Positions 5,649 to 42,316 are shown, counted from the first letter of the stretch. The stretch is DNA of 64,000 bases from Fibrobacter sp. UWT2 (GCF_900142545.1 NZ_FRBF01000001.1:1-64000), one strand, 5' to 3'. Notes: a model not told the origin generated them from the sequence alone. Numbers and translations: made by a program.

Positions 5649-8600
5649 TTAGAATACGTAATTTACGCGAATGCCGCCGTAAACATCCTTGTATTCGTCG
5701 CTGATATTGTCTGGACGATAGAAGAAGGCTGCTCCGGTGTACCATTCTGTGCTTAAACGCTTGGTGTGGTTTACGCGAAGGCTTACGCTGCCCAGAACAT
5801 CGGTTTCGGATTCGTCAACGTCGGTGCCGTTGTCTTCCCATTCAATGTCCATGTGACGGAATTCGCCCGAAAGACCCAAAATCAGGAACCTTTTCAAGAA
5901 GGATATTTCAAGATTGTCGTTGATGGTGAATTCGCGTTCGGTCATGTCGTTGCGCTTGTAGTTCTTGAATCGCGGAATGAAACCGAATTGGTTTTGCACC
6001 TGCTTCAGAGTCGTTGTCGCAGACAGCGGGTAGGCCTGTTCAAAGTAGTTGGCGCCGCCAAAGTAGTAACCCAGTTTGGCCCAAGTGGCATTGGAAAGGT
6101 CCATATCCTTGATATTGTCGTCCTTGTAGAATTTGGAATCATCGGTACGGAGCGTCCAGCGGCCGGCAGCCTTGAATACGGTTTTAAATGCTTGAACAGA
6201 AAGACCCAGGTTCCAGGTGTTCTTGTAGATTCTTTCTTGGAACTTGGAGGCGAGATAATCTTCTGAGGACAAGCTGTTATATTCAGCCCAACGAGCGGAA
6301 TCGACTAACGTTGTGTCTTTGTAGTCATCGATAATTTCGGTCGTAGCCTTGTCCTTGCGTGCGGCAAACCAACCATCCCTATAGATTCCGTCTTCCAGGA
6401 TGTAGTCTCCGTGGAGCTGGTAGGGACGGTATTGCGTACGGTATTCCAGGTTGTATCCGACGTTGACATCTACGTGCTTGCCAATTTTAAAGCTGTTGTT
6501 CAAAGTCCAGTTCTGAATGTACTTGGTTCTGCCGTAATCCAGTTCATGTTCTTCGAACCACGGAGAATCTTCGTCGTTAAAGAGACCCCAGTGGGTTCCT
6601 TCTCCAAGACCGAAGATGTTGGTCATTTCGCCGTTGGCGGCGTTTTCGATATTGAGTAAGTAACCGAAGTTCAGTGTCCAGAAGTTTGTAATAATCTGCT
6701 CGATTTCGCCGCCGAATTCACGAGTATTTGCCAGCTGGTCTGCAGAACCGGCACTGTAGAAGTCTTCGCCAATATACTTCAAGTGGCCAGAAATTGTTGT
6801 CTTGTAAATGTTCCAGTAAAGCGAGGCTCCGATGGCGAAATTCTGGCTGCCCCAGTTGAGGCCCATAACGCGGTCGTCGTCGCGGTCGCTTTCGTAATCC
6901 TTCTTGAGCTGCTTGGCTTCACGAACCAAGGTACGCAAGGAATCACGCATTTCGCTGCGGTTCAGGGTGGTGTTGCCGCCAAAGATTTCGTCCAGTTCTT
7001 CAGCCGAAAGGGAATTGATTCTGCTTTCGCTGACCATGAGCTGGCGAAGCTTGCCCATAGAAGCGGTATTCAGCCCCGCTTTGGTGAAGACTTCGTTAAT
7101 GGCACGTTCCCTGTAGACGTCTGCGGTATCGGCGCGGCCGACGGCAATTTGTCCGTTCAATTCGATGTCGCCGGGGTAGAACAGCCAGTTTCCATCGGCG
7201 TACAAGGTAAAGGACTTCTGCAAGGGTTCGCTTGTAATAGAAGCCCTGCTTCCGCCATCGCGCAGGAGCGGGTCGTGAATTTCATCGTCGGCATAAATGG
7301 CGCCGAAGGTAGCGTCAAAGCGGCGGAGCGGAGCCCACTTGATGGATCCGCCGTAGGCAAGGCGCTGTGCCTGAGCTTCGCCGTCTTCGATGTAGTTCTT
7401 GTAAATGTCGGGGTGACGGTCGCCGATCTGGTAAGGCTTGCGGTTTTCACCAAAGAATCCGTTCAGTTCCAGCAGGGGCTGGTTCACGTTGTTCTTCAGG
7501 AGCGAAAGGGTGTAGCTTGCACCGAAAATGGGCAATCCCGCCATATAGGTTTCGCCACCGATCCTGGTAAAGTCGCCTAAGATCAGCTGGTTGTAGTTGT
7601 CAGTGTAAGTCAACGTTACCGGATTCGGCGAGAACTGATTCCATTTGTCTCCGGTGTAATCGGCGCTAAGTTCAATGGACTTTCCGTCGGGAGACTGCAT
7701 CAACAAGTAAATGCTTGCTTCAGTTCCAAAACCGGGAACCTGGAACGTATTCTTGTAATGGTCGCCAGGCTGGATCGTGTCGCCGGAAATCTCGACGGGG
7801 GATTCCCTGTCGTTCTTGCGCATCAACACATGGTGGTAATGGTTGCCGAACATGACGCTACCAATGACGTTCCAGGACTTCTGAGTAGAATCAGCCTTTT
7901 CTTCGTCTTCAGCTTTTTTTGCAAGCAGAGCGCCAATGTTGTCATTGGCGTCTACAGGGCGGCTTTCAATGCCCGGAATTTCGGGATTTGTAGGCAATGT
8001 CTGGGCGACACCGCTAAAGTCCTTGTTGAAGTTGGTTTCGTTTTCGCCAATGCTTTCAATCACGTTCTTGTCGAGAACGTCGCCTGCGCTAGCACCCACC
8101 TTGTTTTTGCTAACGGTAGAGTTGTCAAGAGACAAGTAGCTGTTGCCCATGTCCAAAATAGCGTAGGTGTTGTTCTGGAAATTCGACGATGCTACGTTGG
8201 TGATGGCGAGTTCCGAATTGTACAAGGCGACCTTGTTGCCGTCAAACTTCACGTCACTAATCGTGGCGTCACTGTAGCTGTCGATATGGACTGCAGCACC
8301 GTCGTTCTTTTCGAATTGGCTTCCGCTAATGGATACCTTGGAATTCTTGGCATAGACGCCGCGGCCAGAAGTCTTTTCGATTTTGCTAGAAAGAATGCTG
8401 ACGGAGGTGTTTTCTGCTACGATACCGTTGGCAGCTCCACTAATGGTGGCGTTCCGGATTTCAGAAGATTCCGAACCCGAAAGGAAGATGCCTTTCCAGT
8501 CGCCGTTTTGAGGCGTGGCCGATGCAGAAACAAATTCTGCCTCGCCGGCTACGACCAACTGGCCTTTGACGTAGAGACCAGTGCCCGGGGCAAACTGCAA

Positions 8601-8801
8601 CTTGACGCCGGGGACAATCACCAGCACTTGGCCGTCTTCGACGGTAAGGTCTTCCGTTACCAGGTAGGGAGACTGCTCTGCCTTGATAAAACCACGAACG
8701 GAACCGTTAATCGGTGTGCCTTGAACTGGGGCTGCTGGTTCTTGGGCGTAAGCCAGTGCGGTGGTCAGGGCGATAATCGAAAAAAGAGAAATGTTTTTCA
8801 T
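5649..8801 (-). CDS. Outer-membrane protein: N-terminal right-handed beta-helix plus large beta-barrel
   Basis: The protein has 1,050 residues. A signal peptide (1-19, cleavage near LAYA-Q) is followed by about 200 residues of short repeats with the look of a right-handed parallel beta-helix (for example SGAANGIVAENTSVSILSSK, about 120-250). An acidic linker comes next, then about 740 residues of alternating amphipathic strands rich in aromatic residues. The chain ends in a terminal phenylalanine (RVNYVF), as expected for a BAM-inserted barrel. The helix could be a surface passenger or a plug; this is inference. The ATG lies 2 nt after the stop of the FecR gene, so the two are surely co-transcribed. 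No specific family name is recognised. A substrate-uptake or adhesion role is possible but unproven. Confidence 0.75.
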   Translation of the reverse strand: MKNISLFSIIALTTALAYAQEPAAPVQGTPINGSVRGFIKAEQSPYLVTEDLTVEDGQVLVIVPGVKLQFAPGTGLYVKGQLVVAGEAEFVSASATPQNGDWKGIFLSGSESSEIRNATISGAANGIVAENTSVSILSSKIEKTSGRGVYAKNSKVSISGSQFEKNDGAAVHIDSYSDATISDVKFDGNKVALYNSELAITNVASSNFQNNTYAILDMGNSYLSLDNSTVSKNKVGASAGDVLDKNVIESIGENETNFNKDFSGVAQTLPTNPEIPGIESRPVDANDNIGALLAKKAEDEEKADSTQKSWNVIGSVMFGNHYHHVLMRKNDRESPVEISGDTIQPGDHYKNTFQVPGFGTEASIYLLMQSPDGKSIELSADYTGDKWNQFSPNPVTLTYTDNYNQLILGDFTRIGGETYMAGLPIFGASYTLSLLKNNVNQPLLELNGFFGENRKPYQIGDRHPDIYKNYIEDGEAQAQRLAYGGSIKWAPLRRFDATFGAIYADDEIHDPLLRDGGSRASITSEPLQKSFTLYADGNWLFYPGDIELNGQIAVGRADTADVYRERAINEVFTKAGLNTASMGKLRQLMVSESRINSLSAEELDEIFGGNTTLNRSEMRDSLRTLVREAKQLKKDYESDRDDDRVMGLNWGSQNFAIGASLYWNIYKTTISGHLKYIGEDFYSAGSADQLANTREFGGEIEQIITNFWTLNFGYLLNIENAANGEMTNIFGLGEGTHWGLFNDEDSPWFEEHELDYGRTKYIQNWTLNNSFKIGKHVDVNVGYNLEYRTQYRPYQLHGDYILEDGIYRDGWFAARKDKATTEIIDDYKDTTLVDSARWAEYNSLSSEDYLASKFQERIYKNTWNLGLSVQAFKTVFKAAGRWTLRTDDSKFYKDDNIKDMDLSNATWAKLGYYFGGANYFEQAYPLSATTTLKQVQNQFGFIPRFKNYKRNDMTEREFTINDNLEISFLKRFLILGLSGEFRHMDIEWEDNGTDVDESETDVLGSVSLRVNHTKRLSTEWYTGAAFFYRPDNISDEYKDVYGGIRVNYVF

Positions 8802-8803
8802 TA

Positions 8804-10699
8804 TTAGACCTTGTATGGCTTAGTTTGCGTAAGAATTTCGCCGCTCTTCAGCTTGACCGTGATTTTGACGATGGTTGTTCCGCGTTTTAGTTCAATCTGC
8901 TGGTCGATTCTGTTAGAAAGCATATCCGAACCGCGGATAATAATAGTCTTGCCCAGATAGGCAATCTTGATTTCCCTGATATAGTCCGGATCGTTCTGCG
9001 GAAGACCCGCAATAGTGAAACTCAGCTGTCTGTGAATCTTGCTGTTGACGCCTTTGGGCGGCGGGGGCGGCACGGGCACGTGTTCCAGACCATCGCCACC
9101 GTCAATGACAATCTTTGCGTTCCTGATGGGCGGGTAGCATTCAAGTTTCTTGTTGATTTCGACATGGTTGCCAGCCAAGTCCTCTACGTGGAAGGTGTAG
9201 TTGTGGGTTCCACGGGAGAGCTTGTCGTTAAACTGGCGGTCGCTATCGATGTAGACGTTCTTTTGGGGCTGCCCATCAACAGAAAGGGTGTAAATGGCCC
9301 TGTCCCCAGTGGTTTGACCAAGTTCCAACCATACCTTGCACTTGTTGGCGGTCATGGCCAAGGTCGGCGGCAACAGATTGACTGTCTTGCAACTCTTGTT
9401 CACCTTGAGAGGAACCGTTGCCGATTGGTCGCCGTTTTCGGATTCATAGTTTATGACGATTGCATTCTCGTTCCAGTTGCCGGCCTTGTCGGATACAGAA
9501 ATGGAATGGGAGAATTTTCCGTTTGCGCTCAGGGGTACCAGGTTATTCGAAGTGTATTTGCCGAGCTTGACGGTGAGGGTGGCGTTACTGTCCGAAGGAT
9601 CGAATACGCCTTCAATGGTTGCCATGGCGGGGTCGCAGACTTCGACGGGCGTATTTGAGGTGATTGTCAGGGGAACAGGTCTGCTCGATTCATCTCCTTC
9701 TTGGTTGCCTGCGTAATAGGTTGTCACCAAGCCGCACTGAATGGTGTTGGTGGAATCATTGCCGTAGAAACAGGTTAACGGGAATTTCTTGGGACCGACC
9801 GTGCTGGCCGCCCACTTGACTACCAACTGGATTTCGCTACCGTCAGAAAGAACTGGTTCGTCAAAGATACGGATATGGGTGCCTTCGGTACAGGTGGCGA
9901 CAATGGTCTGTTCTGCGGAATGAACCACATCGGGGAGGGGAGTGACATTACACTGAATTTTGGCCTTCAGGGCGTTCTGCTTTTCGGAAATCTTCTTGTC
10001 TGCTTCTTCGGTAGCCTTGCGGATAGCGTCTGCCGATAAGGTGGTGTCTGTCAAAACGGAATCGATGGCCTTGAAAAGATCCTGATTACCCGAAGATTTC
10101 AGGTCCATCACGAGGAAATCCTTTTTGCAGTAAATAATAGTCTGGCCACCCGAGATGGAACGGGTTGCTTGTTCGTTGTCGTTGTCGGCAAACTCAAGGC
10201 TTCCTGTTGAGAGGGATGCCACGGAGCAACTTTTCGATGTTCCGACGAAGCCGTCAGTACCGCGGATTGCTGCGGTTGCGGTTCCAGTCTTGAATTTGAA
10301 TTTGCTCTTGCCGTTCGCCTGCTTTTGCACGTCGAACTTCATGCTTCCCCTCTTGACTTCGGTGACGAAGTTGTTTTCGCCGTCTTCAAAGGAGAGCTTG
10401 GTAATGGAAACAACGGTGTTTTCCTGAACGTTGAAGGAACTTCCGTCCGGAAGCCCGATTGTTACTTCGGATTCCTGCTGGGTGATGATGTCGTCACGTT
10501 CCTTGACACTTTTTGCTTTTTTGAGCTTATTCTTGTCGGGATCATTGCTCTTGATGACCATTTCGGAGCCACCACGGTGCACGAAAACTTCGCCTACGGC
10601 ATAGTGAACTTTACCCGTTTGCGATTTTGCGGCGAAAGACGCCCCTACAAATATGGCCAAAAGGGCGGTTTGTAGCTTAAAAAAACGTGAAAAGGACAT
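8804..10699 (-). CDS. FecR-domain secreted protein with Ig-like modules
   Basis: The protein has 631 residues. A signal peptide (about 1-23, ending ASFAA) leads to a FecR-like domain (about 28-190) with the typical DGSSFNVQENTVVSI, GSMKFDV and ATAAIRGTDGFVG blocks. A short Lys/Glu-rich helical stretch (about 225-250) follows, then several beta-rich, cysteine-containing Ig/Big-like segments and a VPVPPPPPKG hinge near 545. Classical FecR is an inner-membrane anti-sigma partner, but this protein has no transmembrane helix beyond the signal peptide, so it is more likely periplasmic or surface-exposed. It is first in a two-gene unit with the beta-barrel protein, which suggests that the two work together. 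GCGAGGC lies before the ATG. Confidence 0.8.
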   Translation of the reverse strand: MSFSRFFKLQTALLAIFVGASFAAKSQTGKVHYAVGEVFVHRGGSEMVIKSNDPDKNKLKKAKSVKERDDIITQQESEVTIGLPDGSSFNVQENTVVSITKLSFEDGENNFVTEVKRGSMKFDVQKQANGKSKFKFKTGTATAAIRGTDGFVGTSKSCSVASLSTGSLEFADNDNEQATRSISGGQTIIYCKKDFLVMDLKSSGNQDLFKAIDSVLTDTTLSADAIRKATEEADKKISEKQNALKAKIQCNVTPLPDVVHSAEQTIVATCTEGTHIRIFDEPVLSDGSEIQLVVKWAASTVGPKKFPLTCFYGNDSTNTIQCGLVTTYYAGNQEGDESSRPVPLTITSNTPVEVCDPAMATIEGVFDPSDSNATLTVKLGKYTSNNLVPLSANGKFSHSISVSDKAGNWNENAIVINYESENGDQSATVPLKVNKSCKTVNLLPPTLAMTANKCKVWLELGQTTGDRAIYTLSVDGQPQKNVYIDSDRQFNDKLSRGTHNYTFHVEDLAGNHVEINKKLECYPPIRNAKIVIDGGDGLEHVPVPPPPPKGVNSKIHRQLSFTIAGLPQNDPDYIREIKIAYLGKTIIIRGSDMLSNRIDQQIELKRGTTIVKITVKLKSGEILTQTKPYKV

Positions 10700-10846: not shown

Positions 10847-11131
10847 ATGGAAGTTGAAGAACTGACCGTTGCCTATAGCGATGAAGATACCGGTGAAGAA
10901 GTCATCAAGGAAATCGGCAAGGAAATCCTTTCGAAGGGTGCATGGCCGACCGTGATGTTCTTTTACCAGGAACGTGACCCGAAGTCCGGTGAATTTACGG
11001 AACCCAAGGTGTCGTTGCGCCGCTACCGCAAGATGGCGGGCAATTTCAAGCCCCAGGGCAAGTTCAAGATCACGGGCAAGGCTCAGGCCGAAGCTATCAT
11101 TGACGTCCTCAAGAAGTGGTATAACATTTAA
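10847..11131 (+). CDS. Small hypothetical protein upstream of ybeY
   Basis: This 94-residue, soluble, charged protein starts MEVEELTVAYSDEDTG and contains KVSLRRYRKMAGNFKPQGKF followed by a helix ending KKWYNI. No family is recognised and no catalytic motif is visible. Its TAA overlaps the ATG of ybeY by one base (TAATG), so the two are translationally coupled. In many bacteria phoH occupies the place in front of ybeY; here this small protein does. It is probably a genuine gene because of the tight coupling and normal codon use. Confidence 0.7.
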   Translation: MEVEELTVAYSDEDTGEEVIKEIGKEILSKGAWPTVMFFYQERDPKSGEFTEPKVSLRRYRKMAGNFKPQGKFKITGKAQAEAIIDVLKKWYNI

Positions 11132-11613
11132 TGCCAGACCCTGCTAGTCGAAAGAAGAAGTATAATATCGAGTTCCTTTGCGAGGGGGACATCGAGGCTT
11201 TTCCGTATAAGGACAAGTTTGAAAAGATGGCTCGCAAGCTCCTTGCCGAAGAAGGCAAGGAAAAAGACGTGAATATCGTGCTCTGCACCGACGAGTTCGT
11301 TCGTGTCATGAACCGCGACTACCGCGGTCTTGACAAGGTGACGGACGTTCTTTCCTTTGAATGGAAGAACGAACTGGGCGTTGAAATCCCCGAAGACGAA
11401 GCGATGCTCGGCGAAATCTACATCGCCCGTGAGCAGGTACGTCGCCAAGCTCCTGAATATGGCAATACCTTCTATGCCGAACTCAAGCGTGTGATCGTCC
11501 ATGGACTTTTGCACCTTTCCGGCTACGACCATATCAAGGCTGCTGACCGCAAGGTAATGCGTGCTCGTGAATGTGAGTTCCTGGGTCTGGACCCCTACAA
11601 GGAGAAAGACTGA
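11131..11613 (+). CDS. ybeY: Endoribonuclease YbeY (16S rRNA 3'-end maturation)
   Basis: The protein has 160 residues, the normal family size. The zinc-binding signature H-x3-H-x5-H is present as HGLLHLSGYDH (His124, His128, His134). It is a single-strand-specific metallo-endoribonuclease acting in rRNA maturation and ribosome quality control. The start overlaps the stop of the 94-residue gene, and the stop overlaps the ATG of the CNNM gene (TGATGG), giving a tight three-gene operon. The ybeY-corC pairing is common in bacteria. Confidence 0.96.
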   Translation: MPDPASRKKKYNIEFLCEGDIEAFPYKDKFEKMARKLLAEEGKEKDVNIVLCTDEFVRVMNRDYRGLDKVTDVLSFEWKNELGVEIPEDEAMLGEIYIAREQVRRQAPEYGNTFYAELKRVIVHGLLHLSGYDHIKAADRKVMRARECEFLGLDPYKEKD

Positions 11614-12962
11614 TGGAAAATCCTGAAAGTTGGGCCATAGCGTTCCTTATCATTTTTGTATTCGTTTCGTTCTCGTTTTCGCTGATCAAGGCGGCTTTCA
11701 GTGGCATTTACGCCAAGCGCGATGCCCGTGACCGCGAAGGTCGCGAAGAGGTGGTTGCCTCGTTGGTGGAACTGCCGGGCTTTAACGAAACGATTTCGAT
11801 CGGCCGCATCTTTTGTAACGTGGGTGCGGGCGTTTTGGGCTTTTATCTGTTCCAGATGATTCCTTGGAACTGGGTGCAAGATTACTGGTTCCTGGCTTTT
11901 GCCGCTTATCTGGTGGTCGCATGCATCGGCATTTACACCATTACAGTGTTCTTGGCGAACCTGCTCGGAAACTTGAAGCCGGACACTTTTGCTGTGGTGC
12001 TGATTCCGCTGTTCAAGTTCATTCGCCTCCCGTTTGCACTGCCGGCAAAGATTTGTCACTTGCTGTTCGTCAAGATTCTGAAGGGCTTGGGCTACGACTC
12101 CAAGCTCAGCTTCTTGCCTGAAGAACGCCGCGACGCCGTGCAGGCGCAGGCCGACCTTTCGGACGAGGCGGATCCTGACGCCGAAGGCCTGGAACAAGAA
12201 GAACGCCAGATGATTTTGAATATCTTCGATTTCGTGGAAACTCCGGTGCGTGAAATCATGACGCCTCGTGTGGATATGTGCGCGGTCGAAGTCGGCACTC
12301 CGCTCGAAGAACTGGTAAAGGTGTTGAATACGGAACGTCATTCCCGTTTGCCGGTGTACAAGGAAACCGTCGATAACATCGTGGGTATCCTTTCGAATCG
12401 CGACTTTTTGGAATGGTACACCGAACACCGTGACGAACCGTTTGATATCATGAAGCTCGTGATGCCGCCGGTATTCGTGCCTTACCACAAGAAGATTGAC
12501 GACATGCTCACCGAACTGCGCAAGACGGGTAACCAGCTCGCTATCGTGGTCGATGAATATGGCGGAACCGCAGGTCTTGTTACGCTCGAAGACATTCTCG
12601 AAGAAATCGTGGGCGAAATCAAGGACGAAGATGACGTGGACGAAGATGAAGACGTGCAGCGCCTCAAGGACGGTCGTTTCATTCTCGACCCGATCATGAC
12701 GCTTTCCGATTTGGAATACAAGCTTGGCGTGGAACTTGAAGCCCCCGAAAATTCCCATGTGGAAACGCTTTCGGGCCTGATTCAGGCTACGCTCGGCATT
12801 ATTCCGTCTCCTGGTGCCGAAGTCACCATCAAGGGCTACACCTTCCGCGTGCTCAAAATGGATGGCACCCGTATGGAAAAGGTGCTCATGATTCAGCCCG
12901 GCAAGGGCAAGACCAAGAACATCAAGGCCGTGCCGCGTACACAGGCTTTTAAGGTGGTGTAA
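11613..12962 (+). CDS. CNNM/HlyC-CorC family transmembrane protein with CBS pair
   Basis: The protein has 449 residues. The N-terminal part holds hydrophobic helices (about 8-30, 70-95, 96-118, 120-150) of a CNNM-type domain. Two CBS domains follow (about 210-330, starting [17 protein letters not shown] and including [22 protein letters not shown]), and then a CorC_HlyC domain (about 345-435). Family members act in magnesium/cobalt homeostasis or as Na+/Mg2+ exchangers; 'hemolysin' is an old label. It is last in the operon with ybeY. A bidirectional terminator follows. Confidence 0.9.
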
Positions 12963-13096: not shown

Positions 13097-14941
13097 CTAC
13101 AGCTCTTCCACGGCTTCGGCGCGGAGGTTCTGCACGATGTGGTCCTGACGCTGCGGCGTGTTGTTGCCCATATAGTAGGCGAGCATCTTGCCGAACGAGG
13201 CATCGGGCGGAAGCACCACCGTTTCAAGGCGCATGTCTTCGCCGATGAACTGGCCGAATTCTTCCGGAGAAATTTCGCCTAGACCTTTGAATCGAGTGAT
13301 TTCGAGACCGGTCTTGCCGATTTCCTTGGCAGCTCTGTCGCGTTCCGTTTCGTCGTAGCAGTACTTGGTCACCTGCTTGTTACGCACGCGGAAAAGCGGC
13401 GTCTGCAGAATGAACAGGTGTTTCTGTTCCACGAGTTCGGGGAAGAACTGCAAGAAGAAGGTCATCAGGAGCAGACGAATGTGCATACCGTCCACATCGG
13501 CATCGGTCGCGATAATCACCTTGTCGTAGCGGAGGTTCTCGAGACCGTTTTCGATATCGAGAGCGTGCTGCAGCAGGTTGAATTCTTCGTTTTCGTACAC
13601 CACCTTCTTGGTCATGCCAAAGCTGTTGAGCGGTTTACCGCGCAAGCTGAACACGGCCTGCGTCTGCACGTTACGAGCCTTGGTAATGGAACCCGAAGCA
13701 GAGTCACCTTCGGTAATGAAGATCATGGTTTCGCGGTTGAGCGCGTTCTTTGCATCGGTCAGATGAATCTTGCAGTCGCGGAGCTTGCGGTTGTGCAGGT
13801 TCGCCTTTTTCGCGCGGTCGTTCGCGAGCTTCTTGATGCCCGCGATTTCCTTGCGCTCGCGTTCGTTCTGCGTAATGCGGTTTAAAAGTGCCTTTTCAGT
13901 TTCCGGATTCTTGTGCAGGTAGTTGTCGAGCTGCGAGGCCACGTAGTCTACAATCCAGGTACGCAGCTGGGCGCCACCCGGAGCAACTGTCGTCGAGCCG
14001 AGCTTGGTCTTGGTCTGCGATTCGAAAACCGGTTCCTGAATGCGTACGGAGATGGCGCCGATAATGCAGTTACGTACGTCGGCCGGGTCCAAGTCCTTCT
14101 TGAAGTGGTCTCGGGCACCCTTCACAATACCTTCGCGGAAGGCCTGCTGGTGCGTACCGCCCTGCGTGGTATGCTGACCGTTCACAAAGCTGTAGTAGTG
14201 TTCGCCGTACTGGTTGCCGTGTGTAAAGGCGACTTCGATGTCGTTTGCCTTAAAATGGGCCACCGGGTAGCGGATAGAATCGTCCACGTGGTTCTGCAAC
14301 AGGTCCAGAAGGCCGTTCGGGCTGTTGTAGGTCTTGCCGTTCATCACCAGCGAAAGGCCGTTGTTCAGGTAGGCGTAGTTCCATACCTTTTCTTCCATAT
14401 AGCCCGGCAAGAAACGGAAATTCTTGAAAATGCTGGCATCCGGTTCGAAATAGATTTCGGTACCGTTCTTTTCTGTCGTATTCTTTTCGCGTTCTTCGCG
14501 GACAAGCTTGCCCTTGCTGAATTCGGCTTCCTTGACGCGGCCGTCGCGGAAACTCCTGACGATAAACTTGGTCGAAAGTGCGTTCACCGCCTTGGTACCC
14601 ACACCGTTCAAGCCCACAGACTTCTGGAAGGCTTCGGAGTCGTACTTACCACCGGTGTTAATCTTCGATACGCAGTCAATGACCTTGCCCAGCGGAATGC
14701 CGCGGCCATAGTCACGTACGCGGGCGCTGTGGTCTTCGATGTCAATGATAATCTGCTTGCCGGCACCCATCACGAATTCGTCGATGGAGTTGTCGATAAT
14801 TTCCTTGACCAGCACGTAAATGCCGTCGTCGGGGCTGTTGCCGTCGCCGAGCTTGCCGATGTACATACCCGGACGTTCGCGGATATGTTCGTTCCATTCC
14901 AGTGTTCTAATGCTGTCTTCGGTATACTTTGCTGCTGCCAT
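13097..14941 (-). CDS. parE: Type IIA DNA topoisomerase B subunit (ParE-like)
   Basis: The protein has 614 residues. The GHKL ATPase domain has [10 protein letters not shown] (48-56), DYGRGIP (77-83) and [14 protein letters not shown] (110-123). The TOPRIM domain has EGDSASG (411-417) and DADVDG (480-485). With the A subunit it passes one DNA duplex through another using ATP. The short length (no insert in TOPRIM) and the [16 protein letters not shown] opening resemble topoisomerase IV B subunits of the Bacteroidetes type more than GyrB. No A-subunit gene is adjacent. GyrB remains a possible alternative. Confidence 0.85.
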
Positions 14942-31623: not shown

Positions 31624-34600
31624 ATGCTCAAAAAACTAATTGCAGCCCTTTTATTCGTATGCCCCCTGGTTTTTGCCAACTGGGAAGGCGACTTGCTTAA
31701 GCCTACGTCTCGCGATATAGACGGCAAGACTTTTTACGAGCTTTCTTCTCCGGAGCATTTAGCCTGGTTTGCGATGCAGGTGAACAAGGGCAACGTGGAA
31801 TACAACGCAATCCTCAAGGACGATATTGTCATTTGGGAAACTCCTGTTTCTGCTTTGACTACGGAGTGGATTCCCATAGGAACAGCGGATTCCAAATATG
31901 CAGGTGTTTTTGACGGCGATGGTCACAAGATTTCTGGCATATACATTGCTGAAAGCCAACTCTATGCAGGGCTTTTCGGTGCGGTGGCAAAGGGGAGTGT
32001 CATCAAAAATTTGACCCTGGAAAATGTTTCCATCACAAGCTCCACTATGGGCAGCAGTACCTCCTTTTCTGGTGGAATTGTGGCCCGCTTTGCAGGTGAT
32101 TCTCTTTTGAATTGTGAATTCAACGGCTTTGTAAGAGATACTAATTATGCGGCGGGTATCGCTGGTGCTATTCTTGGTACATCTTATATTGGCAATGTGC
32201 GTAACAATGGCACCATTGAGGGAGCTTACTCTGCTGGCGGTCTTATAGGAATTGCCGCACAGGGTTCATCAACGACAATTAAGAACTCTGTAAACGACGG
32301 TAGCGTGAGTGGACGCGACAATGGTGGCTTTATTGGAATGGTTTATGGTAAGGTATCCATTGATAGTTGCGTGAACAATGGCGATGTGTTGACTGATTCC
32401 GCAGGGTCGTCTGGAGGATTTATTTATGGTATAGCGAAGAATAGTTCCTTGACCTCCATAAAGAATTCTGTAAATAGGGGATATGTGGTTTCGGGGTATG
32501 AGTCCAAAGAAGGACTTGTTGTGGGCGGCTTTGTTGCCGTGAACGAGGGTGTTCTGGAAATAGACAATTGCGTAAACGAAGGCAAAGTGTCTAAAAATAA
32601 AAAAAATTCGGGGGTTGGCGGAGGCTTTGTTGGCTGGGGCAGAAATAATGTTTCTATAACGAGGAGTGTGAATAAGGGGAATGTCTATGCAGGACGTAGT
32701 GCGGGCTTTATTGGAAAGACGGATTCTGTGGGAGTTTATCTTATTAAGGATTGCGTAAACGAAGGGCAAATTGGTTCCGGCATTCTTTCGTCTATTCAGA
32801 CCAATAGTGGGTTTGTAACAAATGCCACAGGAAGATTCACTATTGATGGTGTTGTCAACAAGGTAGATATTGTTGGTGGCTTAGTCGCAGGAATCGTTGG
32901 TGTGTTTAGGGGAGGAAGCTATTCCTATAGCAATAGTTATACCTCTGTTTTGAACCTGAAGAATGCGGTAAACGAAGGCAATCTTACGGGTATGACAAAT
33001 GTGGGCGGTATTGTTGGCAAAATATTTAACATAAGCGAGTCCGATCATGGTAACTATGTCCATCAATTGACGAATGTGGTGAATCGCGGGCATTTGTCAC
33101 TTGTGACAAAGGGGGGATGCGACATCGGTGGAATCCTGTCGTATAATTCCGATTCGTCTACGGTTATGACCAATGTGAAAAATTATGGCGACATTTTTAT
33201 CTATACGTCGCCAGCGGGCGCTTATTGTAGCGGGAATGGCTATTATGGCGGTATTGTTGGTTATGGGTATTATACGAAAATTCTTGATTCGGAAAACCAT
33301 GGCAATATCGACTATATTGACGAGTCCGGCTTGGCGACTAAGACGGGTTATTTTGGCGGTTTAGTTGGCTACAGGACTTGGAGCGTGAATCGAAGCAATA
33401 ATTACGGAAATATTTACGTCCAGCCTTCGGCAGATACCTCCGGAAAACATTATTTTGCTAGTGGCATTGTTGGCTATTTTCCGGATACCGTTGATTACTG
33501 CATCAACGAGGGACGTATAGAAATTGTTGGAAAAGAGTCGTACAGTGCCCTTGCGGCGGGAATATCTCAATACACGTTGGTGGCGGGCGCTAACATCAAT
33601 AGGGGCAATGTGATTGTTCGTTGGGCCAGTAACGATTCTAATGTTGCTGCCTTGTATCGTGATTCAAGAAAAAATGCATATTTTGCGGGAGCGTACAGCA
33701 CTGCGGATTCCATCATGGCTAGTGGCAAGAATGTGGCGGGAGCGTCGGTCAATACATGCTCGTACATGGATAGAAGTCGCCTTGGAATTGATTCCATGGG
33801 CACAAACACCAAAACCACATCGGAAATGCAAAACTTGGATTTTGCATGGCTTTTGAATACCTGTAACGGAAAAACTTTGAATCAGAAATTTTGGAGCTGG
33901 AATGGTTCCGGCTACCCGGTCTTTGCAGATGACAAGAATCGTCCCATATATAAGGTGTCTTTTCTGGATTCCTCGAAAACTATTCGCGTAAAGACTTATT
34001 ATATCGGTACATCCTACACGGATTATACAGGCCATTTGGCAAGTCCCATAAGTGAACCGGATCCGACCGTTGTTGATGACGAATTGAAATTTGATTATTG
34101 GGTATCTAAAGGGAAAGCCTTTAAGACGGATGACGTCATGACGGGCGATGATTCGCTTTACGCTGTGTTCTCGGAGATATCCTCAGAACCTGGGCTAGTC
34201 CAATTCGTTGTAGAAGGCGATACGGTTTTAAGGTATGTTCTTTCGGGCAAGAGTACCTCGATCACAATGCCCTCGGACGATGCTCCGGGACGCAAGCTTT
34301 TAGGTTGGTATGATGGTGAAACCGCTGTGGGAACGATAGGGAAAAGTCGCTCGTTTTCGACTCCGGTGGTTCTTGTTGCAAAATTTGAGTACAGTCGCTA
34401 TGCCATCGATTTTATGAACGGATTGGATGTTTTGCAGAACGATTCCGTTTCCTATGGTGAACTTCCCGTATATAAGGGAGAAACTCCCGTAAGCAAGGAT
34501 TACGAGTTTGCTGGCTGGAATCCGGTTGTTGCCCCTGCAACACGAGATGTTCGCTATATGGCTTACTTTACAGATCCGAACGCAGAACCTTATAGCTTCG

Positions 34601-37329
34601 CCTATTACGTAAGTTCCAGTTCTGTTTCAGCTGTTTCCAGTTCTAGTGCAAAGAGTAGCTCCTCTAGCTTTAATTATGCGGAAGTAATTCATGACCCTGA
34701 CTGGGTGGGGGATGCGTTGGAAGGTTGTGGAAACTTTTCTGATGGCGGACATACATATAATTATTTAAGCAACTGCTGGACCGTTAATGCGGGAACGGCG
34801 GGTGCAGTGGAGTTTGAAATAGATGACGACGGCTATGAGGTGCTCAAGTTCTGGTCTTCTTATGAAAGCAATAAGGCCTATGCATTGCAAGCTCGTCATA
34901 CAATAACCTTGACGAAGGGACATTCCTATAAGATTGTCGGGAACGGGTATCTTTTTGATGATGCAACATGGGACTCTGTCTATGTGGGCGTTATGCAGTC
35001 AACGACGCCGAATACGGTATACTTTGAACACCTTTTCTCTTTGGATGGAGATTTTGAATCGGATACTTATGATTATTGCGGCTCCACCACTTCGGCCACC
35101 TTCTATATCAATGGTGGTGCGCGTTATGGCGGATTTGCCATTCGAAATGTCAAGGTTGAAGAACGTGAAATTCAGTGCCCGGGAGAGGTTTATGCGAACC
35201 AGGTTGCTTATAGGAAAAATGGCTTCAAGGAATTCCTCCTGCGATTTGGAAACGATAATGTGGTTCAGTTTTTAGATCAGGATGGCAAGGTTGCTTATTC
35301 CGCTATTCCTGGTGAATCTTCCTTCTTTGCGGCGGGTGGTGTTCGAGTGCGTCCCGTAGAATTTACTGGTTTAGACAAGGTTGGTTCTTATATTGTGCGG
35401 CAGGGCGCGGATACCATCTATAAGGATCTTGTTGTGACTGATGCCCCTTATGAGGATATATTAAAGGCGTCTCTCAAATTCTTCTACTATCAACGAGCGT
35501 CCATGGATTTGGATTCGGTGTATGCGGGAGTCTACAAGCGTAGTGCGGGCCACTTGGATACGGCTGTCCGTGCGCATACTTCTACAGGGGATGATCGCGT
35601 GTTTAACAGTGGCAAGGGATGGTACGATGCCGGCGATTATGGAAAGTATATCGTCAATTCGGGTATAACCACTTACACGTTGCTCGCTTTGTACGAACAT
35701 TATCCCAACTACTTCAAGTCTCTCAAGTGGAATATTCCGGAAGAAGGAAATCTGCCCGATTTGCTTGCTGAAATAAAGTACAATTTGGATTGGATGCTCA
35801 CGATGCAGGCTCCTGATGGAGGCGTTTATCATAAGGTTTCGGGACTTGCGTTCCCCAAGACGGTTATGCCGGTTGATGATACGGGTAAGCGGTATGCAAT
35901 AGGTAAGAGTGTAACTGCTACTTACGATTTTGCAGCGGTCATGGCGAAGGCTTATCGCGTTTACAAAAAGTTTGATGCAGTGTTTGCAGAAAAATGTCTG
36001 TCTGCTGCGGAAAGGGCGTATGCTTGGGCCGGATTCAACCCGGAAGCGCTTTATTATGCGAATCCCATAGGAGTGGAAACGGGTGCTTACGAAGATGCGG
36101 ACGCTTCTGACGAATATCAATTTGCTTCGACGGAACTTTATGTTGTGACAGGAAATCCTGATTACAAAACGGTTGGGGTTTCGGGAGATGTTCCTTCATG
36201 GCAGAATGTCTATGGTCTCGCCAATTACGACAAGTCCGTTTATAAGGACAAGTATGGTGCAAGTGCTTACGAAAAATTGATTGCTACAGCGGACAAACTT
36301 GTTGAAAATGCAAGTAAGGGCTTTATGGTTCCTATGACTTCGGATGATTATGTGTGGGGCTCGAACGCCGTCGCTGCCAATCAGGGCGTGTGGCTGCTTC
36401 ATGCATACTATATGACAGAAGATGAAAGGTATTACAATGCTGCTGTTAATGTGGTGGACTATCTATTGGGCGAAAACCCGCTTGGTATGAGCTTTGTCAC
36501 CGGATTCGGTTCTAATTCTCCACAAAATCCGCACCACAGAATTTCCCAGGCTGACAGAATCAAGGCTCCTGTGCCCGGTATGCTGGTGGGTGGTCCGCAG
36601 AATAAGGACAATAGCGATGTTGGCTCTAGCTGTAGTTATTCCAGGACTTATCCGGCGACGGCTTATTATGACAATAGCTGTAGCTATGCGACTAATGAAG
36701 TGGCTATCAACTGGAATGCTCCTCTTGCTTACCTTGTGGGTGCTTTGGAAGCGCTTGCAACAGGTGAAACTCCAACATTTGCTGAAATCCCTGTTTACAC
36801 GGGAAGTTCTTCAAGCAGCTCGGTTGTGTCGTCTTCGAGCCAAGCGAAGTCTTCGTCGTCTGTGGCTCCGTCCAGCAGTTCTCAGGCGAAATCGAGCAGC
36901 TCTGTCGCACCTTCTAGTTCTTCAGTGAAGTCCAGCTCGTCTGTGGCTCAGTCCAGTAGTTCTCAGGTGAAGTCGAGCAGCTCTGTCGCTCCTTCTAGCT
37001 CTTCAGTGAAGTCCAGCTCGTCTGTGGCTCAGTCCAGCAGTTCTCAGGCGAAATCGAGCAGTTCTTCTGCAAAGCAAGGTTCGTCCTCGTCCTCGAAGGG
37101 AACGGGTTTTGTCAGGAATGCTGTACGGCCTACGTTCAACCTCGCGGTAAACGGTATGACTCTCACGCTGACAAACACGCAGGGTGGCGTTGTTCGCATA
37201 TTCGATAGCCTTGGTCACCTGGTTACGGCTAGGTCGCTAGCCGATGCAACGACAAGCATTACCTTGCAGACTCCCGGCAGTTACATTGTCCGAGTGAACG
37301 GGATAAGCAAGAGTGTGACGCTGAAGTAA
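31624..37329 (+). CDS. Giant secreted GLUG-repeat / family 9 glycoside hydrolase (cellulase) with T9SS-like sorting tail
   Basis: The protein has 1,901 residues. Order: signal peptide (1-18); about 17 GLUG-type repeats (about 95-690, for example GGFIGMVYGKVSIDSCVNNG); Flg_new/InlB-like beta modules (about 775-990); polyserine linker (about 996-1016); a beta-sandwich resembling CBM4/9 (about 1022-1180); Ig-like CelD_N domain (from about 1185); GH9 catalytic domain. GWYDAGDYGKY gives Asp1335 and Asp1338 (general base), PHHR is at 1636-1639, and NEVAINWNAP gives Glu1692 (acid). A long polyserine linker (about 1725-1820) precedes a 65-residue Por-like C-terminal sorting domain. It probably hydrolyses beta-1,4-glucan outside the cell; the GLUG part may anchor or bind. 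Confidence 0.85.
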   Translation: MLKKLIAALLFVCPLVFANWEGDLLKPTSRDIDGKTFYELSSPEHLAWFAMQVNKGNVEYNAILKDDIVIWETPVSALTTEWIPIGTADSKYAGVFDGDGHKISGIYIAESQLYAGLFGAVAKGSVIKNLTLENVSITSSTMGSSTSFSGGIVARFAGDSLLNCEFNGFVRDTNYAAGIAGAILGTSYIGNVRNNGTIEGAYSAGGLIGIAAQGSSTTIKNSVNDGSVSGRDNGGFIGMVYGKVSIDSCVNNGDVLTDSAGSSGGFIYGIAKNSSLTSIKNSVNRGYVVSGYESKEGLVVGGFVAVNEGVLEIDNCVNEGKVSKNKKNSGVGGGFVGWGRNNVSITRSVNKGNVYAGRSAGFIGKTDSVGVYLIKDCVNEGQIGSGILSSIQTNSGFVTNATGRFTIDGVVNKVDIVGGLVAGIVGVFRGGSYSYSNSYTSVLNLKNAVNEGNLTGMTNVGGIVGKIFNISESDHGNYVHQLTNVVNRGHLSLVTKGGCDIGGILSYNSDSSTVMTNVKNYGDIFIYTSPAGAYCSGNGYYGGIVGYGYYTKILDSENHGNIDYIDESGLATKTGYFGGLVGYRTWSVNRSNNYGNIYVQPSADTSGKHYFASGIVGYFPDTVDYCINEGRIEIVGKESYSALAAGISQYTLVAGANINRGNVIVRWASNDSNVAALYRDSRKNAYFAGAYSTADSIMASGKNVAGASVNTCSYMDRSRLGIDSMGTNTKTTSEMQNLDFAWLLNTCNGKTLNQKFWSWNGSGYPVFADDKNRPIYKVSFLDSSKTIRVKTYYIGTSYTDYTGHLASPISEPDPTVVDDELKFDYWVSKGKAFKTDDVMTGDDSLYAVFSEISSEPGLVQFVVEGDTVLRYVLSGKSTSITMPSDDAPGRKLLGWYDGETAVGTIGKSRSFSTPVVLVAKFEYSRYAIDFMNGLDVLQNDSVSYGELPVYKGETPVSKDYEFAGWNPVVAPATRDVRYMAYFTDPNAEPYSFAYYVSSSSVSAVSSSSAKSSSSSFNYAEVIHDPDWVGDALEGCGNFSDGGHTYNYLSNCWTVNAGTAGAVEFEIDDDGYEVLKFWSSYESNKAYALQARHTITLTKGHSYKIVGNGYLFDDATWDSVYVGVMQSTTPNTVYFEHLFSLDGDFESDTYDYCGSTTSATFYINGGARYGGFAIRNVKVEEREIQCPGEVYANQVAYRKNGFKEFLLRFGNDNVVQFLDQDGKVAYSAIPGESSFFAAGGVRVRPVEFTGLDKVGSYIVRQGADTIYKDLVVTDAPYEDILKASLKFFYYQRASMDLDSVYAGVYKRSAGHLDTAVRAHTSTGDDRVFNSGKGWYDAGDYGKYIVNSGITTYTLLALYEHYPNYFKSLKWNIPEEGNLPDLLAEIKYNLDWMLTMQAPDGGVYHKVSGLAFPKTVMPVDDTGKRYAIGKSVTATYDFAAVMAKAYRVYKKFDAVFAEKCLSAAERAYAWAGFNPEALYYANPIGVETGAYEDADASDEYQFASTELYVVTGNPDYKTVGVSGDVPSWQNVYGLANYDKSVYKDKYGASAYEKLIATADKLVENASKGFMVPMTSDDYVWGSNAVAANQGVWLLHAYYMTEDERYYNAAVNVVDYLLGENPLGMSFVTGFGSNSPQNPHHRISQADRIKAPVPGMLVGGPQNKDNSDVGSSCSYSRTYPATAYYDNSCSYATNEVAINWNAPLAYLVGALEALATGETPTFAEIPVYTGSSSSSSVVSSSSQAKSSSSVAPSSSSQAKSSSSVAPSSSSVKSSSSVAQSSSSQVKSSSSVAPSSSSVKSSSSVAQSSSSQAKSSSSSAKQGSSSSSKGTGFVRNAVRPTFNLAVNGMTLTLTNTQGGVVRIFDSLGHLVTARSLADATTSITLQTPGSYIVRVNGISKSVTLK
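36805..37080 (+). repeat. Polyserine linker DNA repeat in the cellulase gene
   Basis: Alternating blocks encode SSSSQAK, SSSSVAP, SSSSVK and SSSSVAQ. Segments of about 80-100 bp recur nearly identically (for example GTGAAGTCCAGCTCGTCTGT at several places), indicating recent tandem duplication. Confidence 0.75.
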
Positions 37330-38914: not shown

Positions 38915-41900
38915 ATGACCGCCCAGATCTGCCCCTCCCGTCCGAGTCGTTTCTCGACTTTCAAGGCAATCATCCTCTGCCTGCTGGCAGGGCTTTCTTT
39001 ACCAACCATGCTATATGCAGATTGGGATGGTGGTGTAAAAAAGCCCTCGATTATCGAAAAAGATGGCAAGACATTCTATGAAATCGAGTCAGCCGAAAAC
39101 CTAGCGTGGTTTGCGACGCAGATAAATAAGGGTAATACCGGTTATAACGCAGTCTTGAAAAGAGATATTGCCATTGTGGACACTGCTGTGGGGGCGAATT
39201 CAGTCAAATGGACGCCGATTGGAGATGCAGATAGTGTTAGTTACAAGGGTGTGTTTGACGGTGATGGGCATACGATTTCGGGAGTTTATTCAAATGCAAA
39301 GTATGCAGGTTTCTTCGGGTTTATTGGACCTGGCGCGGTTATTAAAAATCTAAATCTTCAAAATGCATTGGTTCAAAGTTATTTTGGAGTAACATCTAGA
39401 GCAGGCCTACTGTCTAGTATGTTCTCTGGAGATTCCGTTATTAATGTTTCTGTTGCGGGAACTGTTTCGGATACCACATATGCAGGAGGTCTTGCCGCCA
39501 TTATCAAGAGCAAGGCTTATATTGACGGCTTTAGGGGCGATGTTTACTTTGTAGGAAAAGCAAAAAAATATAACGAATATATTGTATATTCTACAAAACA
39601 AGTTGCTGGTGGTGTCGCTGCGCTGGTGTTGGATTCCGTAAGGATTTTGAATAGTCGTGTTTCAGGAAGTGTGGATAGCACTGACGTAAGGGGGTATGTG
39701 GGGGGATTTATCGGAATCGACTCCGCGTATGCCTATTTTGAAAACGATACCAACGATATTAATATGAAGTTGGGCAGTTATCCTTATATCTTGGGTGGGT
39801 ATGTGACACGAGTGACTGTTAGGGCCGCTGCTGATTTTGTTGGGTGTCTAAATCGGGGGAATATTTTGGGAGCATCTAATAATGTTGCTGGTTTTGTGGG
39901 CAAAAATGAAGGAAACCTGTCGTTTTCAAAATCTACGAACGAAGGAACTGTTAAGATGACTGCGTCATCGTTGGCTTATGCGGGGGGATTTGTCGGCCAG
40001 TCCCGTTTAGATAAGGATTCTGATACGATTGAGGTTTCTTTTGAGTATTGCATAAATAAAGGTTATGTTTATTCGCCTCACAGTTCCGGTGGATTTGTGG
40101 GAGGCGCCTTTTACACAAAGCAGAGCATTACTGCTTCTGAAAATGCAGGTAAAGTGAGCGGGAAGGAATATGTAGGGGGCTTTGTTGGTTATGTATCGAG
40201 CCATTTAACTTACATTGATTATAGCCGAAATACGGGAAACATTGTTGGCCCCAAAGTAGGCGGTTTTGTTGGGGTTACATACGGAAAAGTTACTATTGAC
40301 CATAGCATAAATGATGGCAATATTTCTGGACTCGGGAGCTATACGGCGGGTTTTATCTCTTGCATAAATAAGAATGCTCCTACAGTTAATGTTAAAAATT
40401 CCGCCAATAGAGGGAAAATTACTGCGGGCGACGAATCTGACGTTGGCGGTATTCTTGGTGCAACAGGTGGTTCTAATGCCGTTGCTACAAATTGTGAAAA
40501 CTATGGAGAAATTTTAGTTGAGTCTACGGATTCTTCTTCAATAGCAAATGTTGGGGGCATAATAGGTAATTATGGAACAGCAAAAAATTGTAGAAATTAT
40601 GGAAACATAACCACATCGATTGCTTCTCCGCATGTAGGCGGTATTGCTGGTTATGGCGGTCATGCAGAAAGGTGTATTAATAAAGGAACAATTACGGCAA
40701 ATGCTAAAGGTGGTCAGATTTGCGCTGGCGGAATTGGTGGGACTGCAAGTACGCTGCTTTCGTTGAATGAAGGACGTGTGGTCGCGCATGCAACGAGTTC
40801 AACTGCTGCAAAGTGTTATGTTGCCGGCATAACGGTAAGTGTGATTTCGTCATCACGTTTTAAAATGGGAGGAAACATCAATAAAGGAACTGTCGCGGTG
40901 GATGGCGGTGTAGGACATGTTTATCCTTTGTTTGGGACTACGACTTCGGCAAGAGCCATGGCAGGTAGTATTTCGTTGTCTGATTCCATTGTCAATAACG
41001 GTCGACTGACAGCAGGCTCTACACGGCGTGCTGACAAGGACACCGTCGCGATGTGTTCTTTCTTTGATAAAGATGCTTTATTGGTAGAGGATGATTCGCT
41101 TGGATTTGGCGTATCGGCAGCTGAAATGCAAACTGAGGAATTTGCGTGGCGTTTGAATACATGTAACGGCAAAATCAAGAATAATGGTTATTGGAGTCAG
41201 CGTGGTGAAAATTATCCGATTCACGCAGATTTGGATAATCGTGCAATACGAAAAATTACATTCAGGGATTCGTCCAAGGTGATAAATGTCAAAGATTACA
41301 TAGTCGGTGAAAGCTTTACGGATTATACTGGAAAAATTATCCATATGCCTGAATCGCCGAATCCAAGCGATGCCGATGAAGACTTGAAATTCGGCTATTG
41401 GGCTGTGGGAAATGATATTATAGATGAAAATACTGTAATCCTTAATGAGTTCTCTGTGTATGCCTTCTACGTGTCAAAAAAATCGCCTCCCGAAATTTTG
41501 GTATTCAATCAAGATGGCGATATTCGCACAAGTTATGCTATTTATGACAAGACTACAGAAATTTCGTTGCCGAGTGCGCTTTCTAAAACAGGCTACGAGT
41601 TTATTGGATGGTACAATGGTGACCAGTTTGTGGGTACTACAGGTACAAAAATTATTCCAAATGGTTTGTCCGTACTAAATGCAAAATATGAGCCGATTTT
41701 ATACAAGATATCTTTTATGAACGGATCGGAAGTTTTACAGATGGAAAATCTCGCTTACGGGAAAATACCTGAATACAGGGGACAGAAACCGTCTAGTGGC
41801 AATGCCGATTATGTCTTTGATGGATGGACACCTCTTGTTGCGGCAGTTTCTTCAGATATAAACTACTATGCGCATTTTGCAAGTATTGTCGTTGAAAGTT

Positions 41901-42316
41901 CCTCAAGCGTTGCATCGAGTTCGTCACAGATGCCGAGTAGCAGTTCTGTGATTGCATCTAGTTCTTCTGATGAGTCCTCTTCGAGCAAGGCCGAGACTTC
42001 GTCTTCTGCAAAGTCTGAATCATCTTCCTCGTCGAAGGAGAATAGTAGTTCCTCTGCAAAACAGGATGCGTCTTCGTCTTCGAAGGGAACGGATGTTGTC
42101 TGGAATGCTGTACGGCCTACGTTCAACCTCGCGGTAAACGGTATGACTCTCACGTTGACAAACGCGCAGGGTGGCGTTGTTCGCATATTTGATAGCCTTG
42201 GTCACCTAGTTACGGCTAAGTCGCTAGCCGATGCAACGACAAGCATTACCTTACAGACCCCTGGTAGCTACATTGTCCGCATGAATGGCATGAGCAAGAT
42301 CGTGTCGCTGAAGTAA
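38915..42316 (+). CDS. Secreted GLUG-repeat protein with T9SS-like sorting tail
   Basis: The protein has 1,133 residues. A basic signal peptide (cleavage near residue 37, LYA-DWDGG) leads into a segment homologous to the start of the cellulase protein (DGKTFYEIESAENLAWFATQINKGNTGYNAVLK). About 18 GLUG-like repeats (about 100-680), Flg_new/InlB-like modules (about 750-990, AGWTP/GWYNG motifs), a polyserine linker (about 995-1065) and the same 65-residue C-terminal sorting domain follow. No catalytic domain is present, unlike its paralogue. Probably displayed on or released from the surface; adhesion to plant fibre or cells is a guess. Base composition is AT-rich compared with housekeeping neighbours. 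Confidence 0.85.
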   Translation: MTAQICPSRPSRFSTFKAIILCLLAGLSLPTMLYADWDGGVKKPSIIEKDGKTFYEIESAENLAWFATQINKGNTGYNAVLKRDIAIVDTAVGANSVKWTPIGDADSVSYKGVFDGDGHTISGVYSNAKYAGFFGFIGPGAVIKNLNLQNALVQSYFGVTSRAGLLSSMFSGDSVINVSVAGTVSDTTYAGGLAAIIKSKAYIDGFRGDVYFVGKAKKYNEYIVYSTKQVAGGVAALVLDSVRILNSRVSGSVDSTDVRGYVGGFIGIDSAYAYFENDTNDINMKLGSYPYILGGYVTRVTVRAAADFVGCLNRGNILGASNNVAGFVGKNEGNLSFSKSTNEGTVKMTASSLAYAGGFVGQSRLDKDSDTIEVSFEYCINKGYVYSPHSSGGFVGGAFYTKQSITASENAGKVSGKEYVGGFVGYVSSHLTYIDYSRNTGNIVGPKVGGFVGVTYGKVTIDHSINDGNISGLGSYTAGFISCINKNAPTVNVKNSANRGKITAGDESDVGGILGATGGSNAVATNCENYGEILVESTDSSSIANVGGIIGNYGTAKNCRNYGNITTSIASPHVGGIAGYGGHAERCINKGTITANAKGGQICAGGIGGTASTLLSLNEGRVVAHATSSTAAKCYVAGITVSVISSSRFKMGGNINKGTVAVDGGVGHVYPLFGTTTSARAMAGSISLSDSIVNNGRLTAGSTRRADKDTVAMCSFFDKDALLVEDDSLGFGVSAAEMQTEEFAWRLNTCNGKIKNNGYWSQRGENYPIHADLDNRAIRKITFRDSSKVINVKDYIVGESFTDYTGKIIHMPESPNPSDADEDLKFGYWAVGNDIIDENTVILNEFSVYAFYVSKKSPPEILVFNQDGDIRTSYAIYDKTTEISLPSALSKTGYEFIGWYNGDQFVGTTGTKIIPNGLSVLNAKYEPILYKISFMNGSEVLQMENLAYGKIPEYRGQKPSSGNADYVFDGWTPLVAAVSSDINYYAHFASIVVESSSSVASSSSQMPSSSSVIASSSSDESSSSKAETSSSAKSESSSSSKENSSSSAKQDASSSSKGTDVVWNAVRPTFNLAVNGMTLTLTNAQGGVVRIFDSLGHLVTAKSLADATTSITLQTPGSYIVRMNGMSKIVSLK

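Follow-up and report, generated by a model that had tools for sequence, protein, structure and literature searches.

The window analysed here, a 64,000-nucleotide stretch of Fibrobacter sp. UWT2 DNA (GCF_900142545.1 NZ_FRBF01000001.1:1-64000), carries two adjoining minus-strand genes that encode an exported FecR-domain protein (P0001) and an outer-membrane protein with a predicted large β-barrel (P0002). The two genes form a conserved unit across the Fibrobacterota. In kind, the pair is an outer-membrane barrel with a periplasmic partner, which is known from other systems; the barrel itself belongs to a family without a model in Pfam or NCBIfam. We propose, with a probability of about 0.4, that the pair serves as a station in the outer membrane at which giant surface proteins dock or pass through, the FecR–immunoglobulin (Ig) protein being its periplasmic partner. 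Fibrobacter is among the leading cellulose degraders in the gut of herbivores, and both the assembly of its surface and the passage of sugars across its outer membrane are open questions (PMC6851124). A barrel family that lacks a model, and that keeps one partner gene phylum-wide, is a concrete and testable candidate for surface assembly or sugar passage.

8804..10699, minus strand: P0001, exported FecR-domain protein, 631 residues (open reading frame (ORF) call, Pfam, AlphaFold2 (AF2), fold match, hydropathy)
8802..8803, minus strand: 2-nucleotide gap from the TAA stop of P0001 to the ATG of P0002 (sequence)
5649..8801, minus strand: P0002, outer-membrane protein, 1050 residues, comprising signal peptide, β-helix, linker and barrel (ORF, Pfam, AF2, fold matches)

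The original prediction placed the two genes 2 nucleotides apart, which the stop and start codons bear out, both ORFs being as it described. The pairing also recurs in relatives, where the same prediction had suggested looking for it: a FecR-domain gene lies directly upstream of the barrel, on the same strand, at 135 of 145 loci, and at the other 10 the contig ends 0 to 1.3 kb upstream of the barrel. These 145 loci overlap between collections; once near-duplicates are removed 104 pairs are left, and in 89 of them the start of the barrel gene overlaps or directly adjoins the stop of the FecR gene. A barrel profile, searched against the one phylum Fibrobacterota, matches 107 of 167 genomes and 22 of 40 genera, with several genera lacking the barrel. 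Distant members are partial profile matches, each of which carries the FecR gene where there is enough contig. Pair loci are spread over several families; the nearest relatives are in Fibrobacter, a genus in which the pair is almost universal. The UWT2 genome (3.49 Mb, 49 contigs) encodes only two FecR-domain proteins, each directly upstream of a barrel copy. A viral contig collection yielded no relatives, and we found no paper joining Fibrobacter, FecR and the outer membrane. Of the earlier suggestion that this is an undescribed two-component surface or export system, the two-gene unit, which is conserved, stands; the surface or export role is favoured by the linkage to giant proteins at a second locus (below), the window copy itself lying among housekeeping genes.

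10103..10615, minus strand: FecR (CJM-like) domain of P0001, residues 29–199 (PF04773, AF2, PupR fold match)
9959..10084, minus strand: two helices, residues 206–247, replacing the STN domain of sigma regulators (AF2)
9710..9952, minus strand: Ig-like domain 1, residues 250–330, with four co-conserved cysteines (AF2, BLAST ranges, Cys counts)
9389..9664, minus strand: Ig-like domain 2, residues 346–437, with Cys355 and Cys437 (AF2, Cys counts)
9137..9382, minus strand: Ig-like domain 3, residues 440–521, with Cys454 and Cys521 (AF2, Cys counts)
8807..9037, minus strand: Ig-like domain 4, residues 555–631, preceded by a proline-rich linker (AF2)

P0001 runs from a signal peptide through a FecR domain and a helical hairpin to four Ig-like domains (Pfam, AF2), and is predicted to be a soluble periplasmic protein. 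The FecR assignment, made at the outset, holds: PF04773 matches residues 69–167 (E 1.8e-11), Ig-like matches are also present in the library scan, and the modelled FecR fold superposes on the PupR signalling domain (6ovk_R; Z 17.7, root mean square deviation (r.m.s.d.) 2.2, 136 residues). The AF2 model draws on 69 homologues and has a mean predicted local distance difference test (pLDDT) score of 89; a first Foldseek pass with the whole model returned generic Ig strings only, and a second fold comparison resolved it. Hydropathy scanning finds no hydrophobic 19-residue window beyond the signal (maximum 0.77), in agreement with the claim that there is no further membrane helix. The ten cysteines fall into groups that are conserved together, and all 69 homologues retain Cys454 and Cys521, a pattern to be expected of periplasmic disulphides. 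Ig-like domain 1 is missing from the paralogous B-type partner (BLAST ranges). A PDB search by sequence gave no match.

A FecR domain of the right fold beside an outer-membrane protein recalls the FecR-type regulators, and P0001 could on that ground be thought to signal from the barrel to a sigma factor. We regard this as barely conceivable: the domain make-up contradicts it, with no anti-sigma domain, no membrane helix and no STN domain, and no extracytoplasmic function sigma-factor gene occurs among the neighbours examined (pheT, an RluA-type gene, an FAD protein, ybeY, corC and a GyrB-type gene). The view that P0001 is no classical anti-sigma factor is thereby supported, and the FecR domain appears here to be used outside sigma regulation, in a putatively all-periplasmic protein whose gene is paired with that of an outer-membrane barrel.

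8022..8717, minus strand: right-handed parallel β-helix of P0002, residues 29–260 (PF13229, AF2, AlgG/NosD fold matches)
5652..7871, minus strand: predicted outer-membrane barrel, residues 311–1050, about 26 strands, C-terminal Phe (AF2, MtrB match, hydropathy)
6882..7124, minus strand: helices inserted into a long, conserved loop, residues 560–640 (AF2, conservation)

P0002 opens with the short β-helix that had been foreseen in front of the barrel, modelled by AF2 over residues 29–260 and matched by PF13229 over residues 104–238 (E 5e-13); its closest fold is AlgG (Z 22), and NosD also matches. The C-terminal region has no match in Pfam or NCBIfam. Structure prediction, proposed earlier as a check, gave a confident barrel and not the absence of one (70 homologues, mean pLDDT 86), with strands over residues 311–1049. 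DSSP counts 25 long strands; taking the split strand 919–931 as one more would give 26, with both ends periplasmic, and the β-helix is likewise probably periplasmic. At about 26 strands against 12, the barrel is, as claimed, far larger than that of an autotransporter. Hydropathy alternation along the strands (2.15 versus 1.14 ± 0.17 in shuffles, maximum 1.75, n=2000) supports a membrane barrel independently of the AF2 model. The closest solved barrel is MtrB (6r2q_B; Z 20.4, r.m.s.d. 3.7, 466 residues), found in a second fold comparison that resolved a first Foldseek pass of the whole model, in which only low-scoring barrels appeared. The long loops are conserved about as much as the strands or more (for example 678–692 at 0.79 and 1029–1036 at 0.74), which is not typical of exposed loops; the β-helix is less conserved than the barrel (0.46 versus 0.61).

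The link to giant surface proteins comes from a second Fibrobacter locus, B, where a giant cadherin C-terminal domain is encoded upstream in 33 of 135 pairs, SUI1 lies upstream in 33 pairs and an endonuclease IV gene downstream in 26. At the UWT2 B locus, giant cadherin-like proteins of 1515 and 2749 residues (L152:5627-18759, contig C6) are encoded upstream of the pair, and the two have in common a 300-residue C-terminal part that is 62% identical. This common domain ends in a conserved FGYKRP-type motif, and the giants occur in nearly all Fibrobacter genomes examined. One clade, which has also lost the β-helix at the A locus, is missing the upstream cadherin gene at the B locus; there, a 1650-residue protein begins about 20 nucleotides after the barrel and matches TIGR04183, the type A tail of the type IX secretion system (T9SS), above cut-off. 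At three loci in other genera, giants of about 1850 residues with similar tails begin 4 to 19 nucleotides after the barrel; TIGR04183 scores of such downstream giants are 27.6 bits at L155 (above cut-off) and 21.8 at L128 (just below). With cadherin giants upstream and tailed giants downstream of the barrel, the linkage of the pair to giant surface proteins arose in more than one arrangement. Matches to SprA_N and 27 matches to Por_Secre_tail in the UWT2 genome show that a type IX system is present. Envelopes of F. succinogenes S85 yielded a 317.9-kDa 'cadherin domain protein', FSU_2932, solely when the cells had been grown on microcrystalline cellulose (PMC4619616); by its size and annotation this may be the linked cadherin giant.

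How such a station could work is suggested by analogy with the docking of FecR (PMC7186176) and with the PorP/PorE and SprF/SprB systems (PMC9143113). P0002 would be an open-fold 26-strand barrel whose N-terminal β-helix points into the periplasm and whose conserved long loops probably line or close the barrel opening. P0001, with its single FecR domain followed by four Ig-like domains, would form a rod in the periplasm. This rod would dock on P0002 from the periplasmic side and brace or plug it, in much the way that sigma regulators use their FecR part to bind an outer-membrane receptor. The assembly might then anchor giant surface proteins or let them through, whether these are delivered by the type IX route or by the station itself. 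For the window copy, the client would be encoded elsewhere, as no cargo gene is linked there. Topology, the P0001–P0002 contact and the cargo all remain putative in this scheme. A wider formulation, in which the 26-strand barrel and its FecR–Ig partner make up an undescribed, phylum-defining machine of the Fibrobacterota that receives and displays giants, with exchangeable cargo and a dispensable β-helix, is one that we offer only tentatively and hold to be doubtful.

Several observations weigh against a role in handling giants. The window copy sits at a phylum-wide locus without a giant protein beside it, and for this copy the proposal is weakest. In some genomes the giants are far from any pair; their C-terminal domain is absent outside the Fibrobacteraceae, whereas the pair is older; and the cadherin giants lack a match to any T9SS tail model. 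Nor does co-evolution speak for contact within the pair. FecR and barrel distances correlate (mirror-tree r 0.72, reached in 0 of 1000 permutations), but once ybeY and corC are taken as controls, the partial correlation of 0.28 is not above that of control pairs (0.27 to 0.49 in size). As control gene pairs score alike, the correlation points to shared inheritance only, and we rejected it as a contact signal.

The surroundings of the window copy bear on two further explanations. Divergent from the pair lie three plus-strand genes:

10847..11131, plus strand: 94-residue ORF without a Pfam match (kept in 53 loci of the set)
11131..11613, plus strand: ybeY (PF02130, E 2e-31)
11613..12962, plus strand: CorC/CNNM-type gene (PF03471 and CBS)

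The divergent ybeY arrangement is seen in 80 of 135 pairs, distant families included, and a corC-type gene in 76 of 135; the window copy therefore occupies the ancestral locus and was inherited vertically. Vertical descent next to housekeeping genes throughout the phylum, together with an Ig-rod architecture with conserved disulphides, would suit a structural element of the envelope, in which the barrel is an anchor in the outer membrane and the FecR–Ig rod links it with peptidoglycan or an inner-membrane partner. This is rather improbable in our judgement, since Pfam and NCBIfam scans found no known peptidoglycan-binding domain in P0001, a purely structural role gives no reason for as many as 26 strands and for long loops that are conserved, and several genera do without the pair. 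We find it equally improbable that the two proteins are a free-standing exporter of a substrate of their own, unrelated to the giants, with the FecR–Ig protein as periplasmic adaptor. The size class of the barrel, common to the secretion barrels LptD, FimD and MtrB (PMC7198977), fits such an exporter, as does the persistence of the pair outside the family, where the giants are absent; but no gene other than ybeY–corC is linked to the pair across the phylum, and there is no substrate candidate.

The β-helix is missing from the A-locus barrels of one clade (L058-L060, L107-L110, L147, L150) and from the B-locus barrels of a second (L062-L066, L151), which makes at least two losses with the barrel and FecR partner retained; in relatives, then, the β-helix is dispensable. 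A tie between its loss and Ig-domain loss in the partner was rejected for want of a clean correlation: where the β-helix is lost at the A locus the partner keeps four Ig domains, and where it is lost at the B locus the partner is shorter. These losses matter for the idea that large oligosaccharides such as cellodextrins cross the barrel, which would be a channel for their uptake or diffusion, with the β-helix and FecR–Ig protein as periplasmic sugar-handling or gating parts. The outer-membrane route of cellodextrins in F. succinogenes is unknown (PMC6851124). A β-helix fold is frequent in carbohydrate enzymes (AlgG and polygalacturonases head the list of fold matches), a glycoside hydrolase family 9 (GH9) gene lies near the B pair, and near-universality in Fibrobacter would be in keeping with such a channel. 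A β-helix fold alone shows no function, however, and this one was lost twice; the window copy has no transporter genes as neighbours, and the pair also occurs in distant families of unknown diet. We consider the channel unlikely, and retain the docking or passage of giant surface proteins as the preferred reading.

Other features were seen near pairs or elsewhere in the window. In some distant families a 430-residue exported-looking protein adjoins the barrel (L195:9198-10496, L070:8963-10276, L201:1387-2676); it has an 'xxPMDD' start region and no Pfam or NCBIfam match. In one distant family (L194, L196, L199) a large surface-type protein with a FlgD-like C terminus is encoded convergently to the barrel. 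The window also encodes a GyrB/ParE-like subunit of 614 residues, below all NCBIfam equivalog cut-offs (13097-14941, minus strand), a 1901-residue protein with a GH9 domain at residues 1276–1704 (31624-37329, plus strand) and a 1133-residue ORF with a List_Bact_rpt match (38915-42316, plus strand).

Among known systems, FecR/PupR with FecA/PupB share with the pair a FecR (CJM) fold beside an outer-membrane protein gene. Sigma regulators dock through their FecR part on the receptor in the outer membrane, at its periplasmic domain, and carry a C-terminal STN subdomain (PMC7186176). P0001, in contrast, lacks the N-terminal anti-sigma domain, its FecR domain starting right after the signal peptide (Pfam, AF2), and has two helices and four Ig-like domains in place of an STN domain, without the single membrane helix; the P0002 barrel has neither the TonB plug nor the signalling domain of FecA/PupB. 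Leptospira Lsa33 and LipL45 show FecR similarity to P0001 (NCBIfam E 5e-12 and 4e-7, far below family cut-offs) but have no Ig rod. We know of no barrel partner for either.

MtrB of MtrCAB is a 26-strand barrel whose size has been compared with LptD and FimD (PMC7198977), and resembles P0002 in strand number (our count being partly inferred) and in having a periplasmic partner encoded with it. The MtrB/PioB partner is a multihaem cytochrome, whereas here it is a FecR–Ig protein, with no cytochrome among the neighbours examined, and P0002 has an extra N-terminal β-helix. Kinship with MtrB by sequence was rejected, as a Pfam scan gave no PF11854 match up to E 1; the size class is common to both. 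LptD/LptE likewise combine a 26-strand barrel with a partner protein (PMC7198977), but P0002 has no LptD domain and a separate LptD_2 is encoded at C16:55046-56452, so that P0002 was rejected as LptD. With classical autotransporters P0002 shares a β-helix N-terminal to a C-terminal barrel. Their translocator has 12 strands, against about 26 over 740 residues here, and the short β-helix of P0002 is probably periplasmic as well as dispensable; with no autotransporter Pfam match either, this assignment too was rejected.

The T9SS type B anchoring machinery of Bacteroidota is a comparison on which the station proposal leans. There, the barrel PorP and the periplasmic PorE together retain a protein at the surface, and the giant SprB depends on SprF both to be secreted and to attach to the surface (PMC9143113). 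P0002 is not PorP/SprF by sequence, having no PF11751 match and far more strands than 14. A PorP_SprF search of the UWT2 genome gave no match, as did its controls, and is uninformative; the absence of LptD and PorP from the best matches of the fold searches excludes nothing. PorP and SprF belong to the FadL family of barrels, with 14 strands, and PorE is a lipoprotein, whereas the barrel here has about 26 strands, its partner is a FecR–Ig protein and no lipoprotein, and its cargo is putative. What the two have in common is a barrel and a periplasmic multidomain partner, often encoded by adjoining genes (PMC9143113).

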